Source: Desmodus rotundus (lineage: Eukaryota; Chordata; Mammalia; Chiroptera; Phyllostomidae). From it: a stretch of DNA of 64,000 nt. The position numbers and the translations under genes were made by a program. Positions 37,832-38,164 of this stretch are shown piece after piece (the stretch's first letter is position 1; each line of letters opens with the position of its first letter). A model generated the notes under the pieces. The model did not search any database and was not told where the DNA came from. It saw only the letters and a list, made by a program, of their open reading frames with translations. The stretch covers positions 75,042,097-75,106,096 of the forward strand of contig NC_071392.1 in assembly GCF_022682495.2 (NCBI RefSeq), read 5' to 3'.

Positions 37832-38164
37832 CTGCTGTAGAGCCCAGGAAGTCCTCCAAAGCACACATGCGGCGCCCGAAGGTGAAGTAGCCCCGACAAC
37901 TGGTAATGAAGACAGTGGCGACAGAGAAGATGCAGAAGAGGAAGCCCCCCAGGGACACACTGATCAAAATGTAGTTGAGTGGCTGCCTCAGCTTTTTGGC
38001 CACCAGCACCATGGCATTGAGGGCATCCCTGCAAAGAAGACAAAGCCCATGAAGGCTGCCTGGAGGTGGAAGGCCCAGACAGGGGCAATGTGGTACAGAG
38101 GCCCATCCCATGGTCCCACCGAGGAGATGTTCTCAAACAGATAAAACTCCTCCTCCCCTGACAT
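37832..38164 (-). pseudogene. OPN1SW: OPN1SW exon 1 with frameshift and 12-bp deletion
   Basis: Encodes the N-terminus ([11 protein letters not shown] with the Asn glycosylation site), TM1, and, after the frameshift, TM2 and the start of TM3. Reading resumes in another frame as [20 protein letters not shown]. The upstream in-frame Met used in human is Val (GTG) here, so the start is the second Met, as in mouse. Donor GCAG|GTACCA is intact. Confidence 0.92.

Follow-up and report, generated by a model that had tools for sequence, protein, structure and literature searches.

Loss of the SWS1 cone opsin has been described before in the vampire bat Desmodus rotundus. Excerpts of Li et al. 2018 (PMC6085362) report that part of the Desmodus SWS1 gene was amplified and that it carries four deletions, two of which shift the frame, together with five premature stop codons. 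According to the same excerpts, the SWS1 gene of Diaemus has a different, single deletion, and those authors conclude that the losses were independent. In the portions of Sadier et al. 2018 (PMC6333445) drawn on here, Desmodus is among the species without S-opsin protein, L-opsin protein was present in 56 of the 56 bat species examined, and a partial OPN1SW transcript was recovered from Desmodus, with a premature stop confirmed both by PCR and in the genome. Recovery of this partial transcript means that transcription of the gene has not wholly ceased. Further losses of bat SWS1 appear in the excerpted text of Simoes et al. 2018 (PMC6340466), and Kries et al. 2018, on vampire bats, is cited in passages of both PMC6333445 and PMC6340466. 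SWS1 loss in Desmodus rotundus is already known; the finding that we describe is correct and is not new, and our main scientific result repeats the published vampire bat finding.

The window, by which we mean the whole 64,000-nucleotide stretch of Desmodus rotundus DNA that was analysed, contains a five-exon gene on its minus strand (38164-35055). By sequence comparison this locus is the OPN1SW (SWS1 opsin) orthologue, its best matches being SWS1 and not other opsins. Residues 5-348 of human SWS1 (PDB 8y02) matched the in-frame pieces of all exons with an E value of 2.1e-184, and the best 10 of 720 predicted-protein matches (from 3887 candidates) were bat SWS1 sequences, eight from phyllostomids and two from pteropodids, at 85-86% identity, which is likewise the range for intact phyllostomid SWS1 against the window gene. 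Exon 1 (37832..38164, 333 nt) begins with an ATG at 38164-38162 and keeps its GT donor; exons 2 (37392..37560, 169 nt), 3 (36700..36865, 166 nt) and 4 (36058..36291, 234 nt) keep their splice sites; and exon 5 (35055..35174, 120 nt) ends in a TAA at 35057-35055. As a preliminary description of this DNA had stated, the start, the terminal stop and all splice sites are retained, with GT/AG at four of four introns. A putative TATA-box-like element, TATAAGAG (38197..38204, minus strand), was read by eye and is still present 33-40 bases upstream of the ATG, while a bacterial promoter scan of the region upstream of exon 1, made with a tool unsuited to a mammal, gave no match. CALU and CCDC136 are the neighbours expected of an OPN1SW orthologue, and the candidates for them are a CALU-like open reading frame (ORF), recognised by eye only and with no Pfam match, and a CCDC136-like ORF, also recognised by eye only, with weak coiled-coil Pfam matches below the cut-off.

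The coding frame of this gene, read on the minus strand, is damaged in two exons. In exon 1, the C run that follows FVFFAGM (38021..38023) is shorter by one base than the reading frame of intact relatives requires, a 1-bp deletion that causes a frameshift. Just downstream, at a junction between 37997 and 37998 (37997..37998), a 12-bp in-frame deletion was placed by comparison with human SWS1 and eight phyllostomids; the four codons removed read TLRY in human and in seven of the eight fetched phyllostomids, and TLRC in the remaining one. Spliced reading from the ATG meets its first premature stop at codon 59 (37988..37990), after 58 codons. The preliminary description had named both exon 1 deletions and a stop after fewer than 60 codons, and each was recovered at these positions; its list of damage missed three deletions in exon 4, which we add to that account. 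The first of these is a 1-bp deletion in a G run (36250..36253), which shifts the frame and is possibly polymorphic or an assembly error; the second is a frameshifting 2-bp deletion (36202..36204), the exact placement of which is ambiguous; and the third is a 3-bp deletion (36111..36114) that, relative to human and phyllostomids, removes a single Phe codon from the FF pair that precedes the FSKSA segment, which we take to contain the retinal-binding Lys.

Spliced OPN1SW is 1022 nt long versus 1041 nt (346 codons and a stop) for intact phyllostomids. Because this 19-nt shortfall equals 1+12+1+2+3, the five deletions explain the full difference and no insertion is needed. The five-exon boundaries are conserved in that the exon lengths plus the five deletions yield the 346-codon frame. 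Over the whole coding region, the totals are five deletions, three of them frameshifting, and four stops, which begin at 37990, 37966, 37455 and 36068. A His codon (36751..36753) also replaces Pro at residue 210 of the 346-aa scheme; the residue is Pro in 20 of 20 compared mammals and is presumably P5.50 of class A receptors.

The published Desmodus rotundus pseudogene resembles the window gene most closely, being from the same species and the same gene, with frameshifting deletions and premature stops, L-opsin kept and S-opsin protein undetected in the excerpts concerned. It differs in its counts of deletions, frameshifts and stops, which are 4, 2 and 5 in the excerpted account of a partial region and 5, 3 and 4 here. 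The pseudogene of Diaemus youngi (Li et al. 2018, in excerpt) likewise comes from a vampire bat and has a frameshifting deletion and a premature stop, but its one deletion is reported as distinct from those of Desmodus. Among noctilionoid bats, the SWS1 pseudogenes of Mormoops and Pteronotus gymnonotus share with the window gene a frame-disrupting deletion in exon 1, as far as the excerpts of PMC6340466 extend. In these excerpts, shared deletions disrupt both exon 1 and exon 2 in Mormoops and P. gymnonotus has a single-base deletion, whereas exon 2 of the window gene has no deletions and its exon 4 has three.

The discrepancy with the published Desmodus counts would be accounted for if one exon 4 indel, of either 1 bp or 2 bp, were polymorphic or an assembly error, the other deletions being common to Desmodus, and we put the chances of this as evenly balanced. 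If the exon 4 1-bp deletion is disregarded, four deletions, two of them frameshifting, and five premature stops result, which are the published counts; this is an agreement of counts, set against excerpts in which Li et al. covered only part of the gene. Disregarding the 2-bp deletion gave five stops within exons 1-4 but eight over all exons, and disregarding the exon 1 1-bp deletion instead left only two premature stops, the stops in each case being counted segment by segment with the letters unchanged. One frameshifting indel of exon 4 is present in the window but apparently not in the published Desmodus sequence; we hold it doubtful that this difference is genuine and still segregating, in which case decay of the gene would be ongoing and traceable among living vampire bats.

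A more sweeping version, in which the frameshifts are assembly errors and OPN1SW is intact in the animal, is highly improbable. Of the three deletions that shift the frame, two are of single bases, and both sit in short one-base runs, a common site of assembly error. However, the 2-bp, 3-bp and 12-bp deletions are of another kind, and the private replacements described below strike invariant sites at the chance rate. Furthermore, the sequencing of Li et al. and the PCR-confirmed stop of Sadier et al., both as excerpted, show frameshifts and stops in Desmodus, and S-opsin protein was undetected in this species in the excerpted part of PMC6333445. We rejected the interpretation of the whole pseudogene as an assembly artefact on these published Desmodus sequence data. 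There is next to no likelihood that the pigment comes from another OPN1SW, whether intact or a retro-copy, elsewhere in the genome, the objection that the preliminary description had itself raised, as the gene's own locus was the sole match to exon 1 DNA in the whole assembly (2.12 Gb, 574 contigs), and a protein search of the assembly (54 matches, 119 of 253 candidates scored) found no second OPN1SW, six matches being the window locus (74-98% identity) and the other 48 reaching at most 49% identity.

We regard it as nearly certain that the best explanation as a whole is an OPN1SW pseudogene, damaged as described, the transcripts of which would undergo nonsense-mediated decay in an animal that would be a cone monochromat. 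With four exon junctions downstream of the codon 59 stop, nonsense-mediated decay is predicted for any OPN1SW transcript. A product made from the ATG would contain no more than a portion of the first transmembrane helix, and the retinal-binding Lys would be missing from it. Among the candidates scored, the best protein matches outside OPN1SW were RHO (contig C8) and OPN1LW (contig C14). The five exons of RHO match without stops, as do the six exons of OPN1LW against the human protein, the splice sites of OPN1LW exons 2-5 being seen as well; on these stop-free exon matches OPN1LW is intact, as L-cone monochromacy demands. The animal would have rods and L cones only and be a cone monochromat. 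The features of a unitary pseudogene were likewise found, namely frame-disrupting mutations, no functional copy elsewhere in the assembly, and relaxed selection at the protein level. The view put forward in the preliminary description, that the gene is a pseudogene and that the animal has no S-cone pigment and a single (L) cone opsin, is supported by the search of the assembly, in which no second locus was found, by stop-free OPN1LW and RHO, and by published protein data. OPN1SW offers a clean case of trait loss that is readable from raw sequence, on which the preliminary description was right without the use of tools.

The age of the loss is a separate matter. The preliminary description had read the retention of start, stop and splice sites as a sign that the loss was recent, a claim that we find unsupported. 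Residues were compared among 20 SWS1 proteins (12 bats and 8 other mammals) from 120 listed matches, leaving aside two 283-aa bat rows, non-mammals and the other listed mammals. The window gene has 24 private residues relative to these 20 other mammals versus 1-5 in each of the eight intact phyllostomids; long-branch mammals have higher counts, with a maximum of 16 in Sarcophilus. The eight phyllostomids are near relatives of one another, while the comparison set holds none for the window sequence, so that part of its private-residue count reflects branch length. Fourteen of the 24 private residues fall on columns that are invariant in the 20 other mammals, where 14.4 would be expected by chance (202 of 337 columns), compared with 6 of 22 for the pooled intact phyllostomids (Fisher p 0.042 versus the window). 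In addition, the distance of the window sequence to seven outgroups, a measure free of the branch-length bias that affects private-residue counts, exceeds the intact-phyllostomid mean by about 15-20 replacements.

For dating, the mutation rate was set at an assumed 2.0-3.0e-9 per site per year. Given this rate, the replacement data suggest that relaxed constraint on OPN1SW may have begun roughly 8-15 million years ago, a range that also depends on an assumed 2.25 replacement sites per codon and on a background omega of 0.13, taken from the excerpted part of PMC6333445. The start, stop and splice sites together amount to only 22 bases, and the chance that a neutral gene keeps all of them for 10 million years is 0.59 at an assumed 2.4e-9; their retention is therefore no sign of recent loss. 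A recent loss was rejected on the chance-rate hits at invariant columns, the excess of replacements and the weak signal carried by the 22 kept bases. This case shows how little can be learned about when a gene was lost from the fact that its splice sites are retained.

Several other sequences were observed in passing. OPN1SW intron 2 holds a tRNA-derived SINE-like insertion (window 37310-37108, minus strand), recognised by eye and with approximate boundaries, which we take to resemble the bat VES family. Also on the minus strand, Pfam matches to Transposase_22 and Tnp_22_dsRBD mark what is left of a LINE-1 ORF1 protein at 1846-2277 of the window. At 4223-4844, a cold-shock-domain sequence extends across two overlapping frames on the same strand, with a Pfam CSD match for ORF 4223-4726; it is probably a processed pseudogene, the source of which was presumably a YBX-type gene. 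A further minus-strand region, 41848-42742, consists of ORF 41848-42192, which is retroelement-like by eye and, we presume, resembles the C-terminal portion of a protein from an RTE/BovB-type element, and an overlapping ORF, 42104-42742, without a Pfam match. Outside the window, the mitochondrial contig C574 (16659 bp) encodes an ND2 protein with 100% identity over 347 aa to that of Desmodus rotundus, in agreement with the species; of the other 119 matches listed, the closest by identity was Diaemus youngi at 83%. A second contig, C478 (L033, L034), is mitochondria-like, with an inverted join, and is 95.7-96.9% identical to C574 in the parts seen; it may represent a second haplotype, a chimeric contig or a large copy in the nuclear genome. 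On contig C3, at about 149.38-149.62 Mb, three near-identical OR6C76-like olfactory receptors with open 309-aa frames (L026, L027, L028) suggest a recent local expansion.
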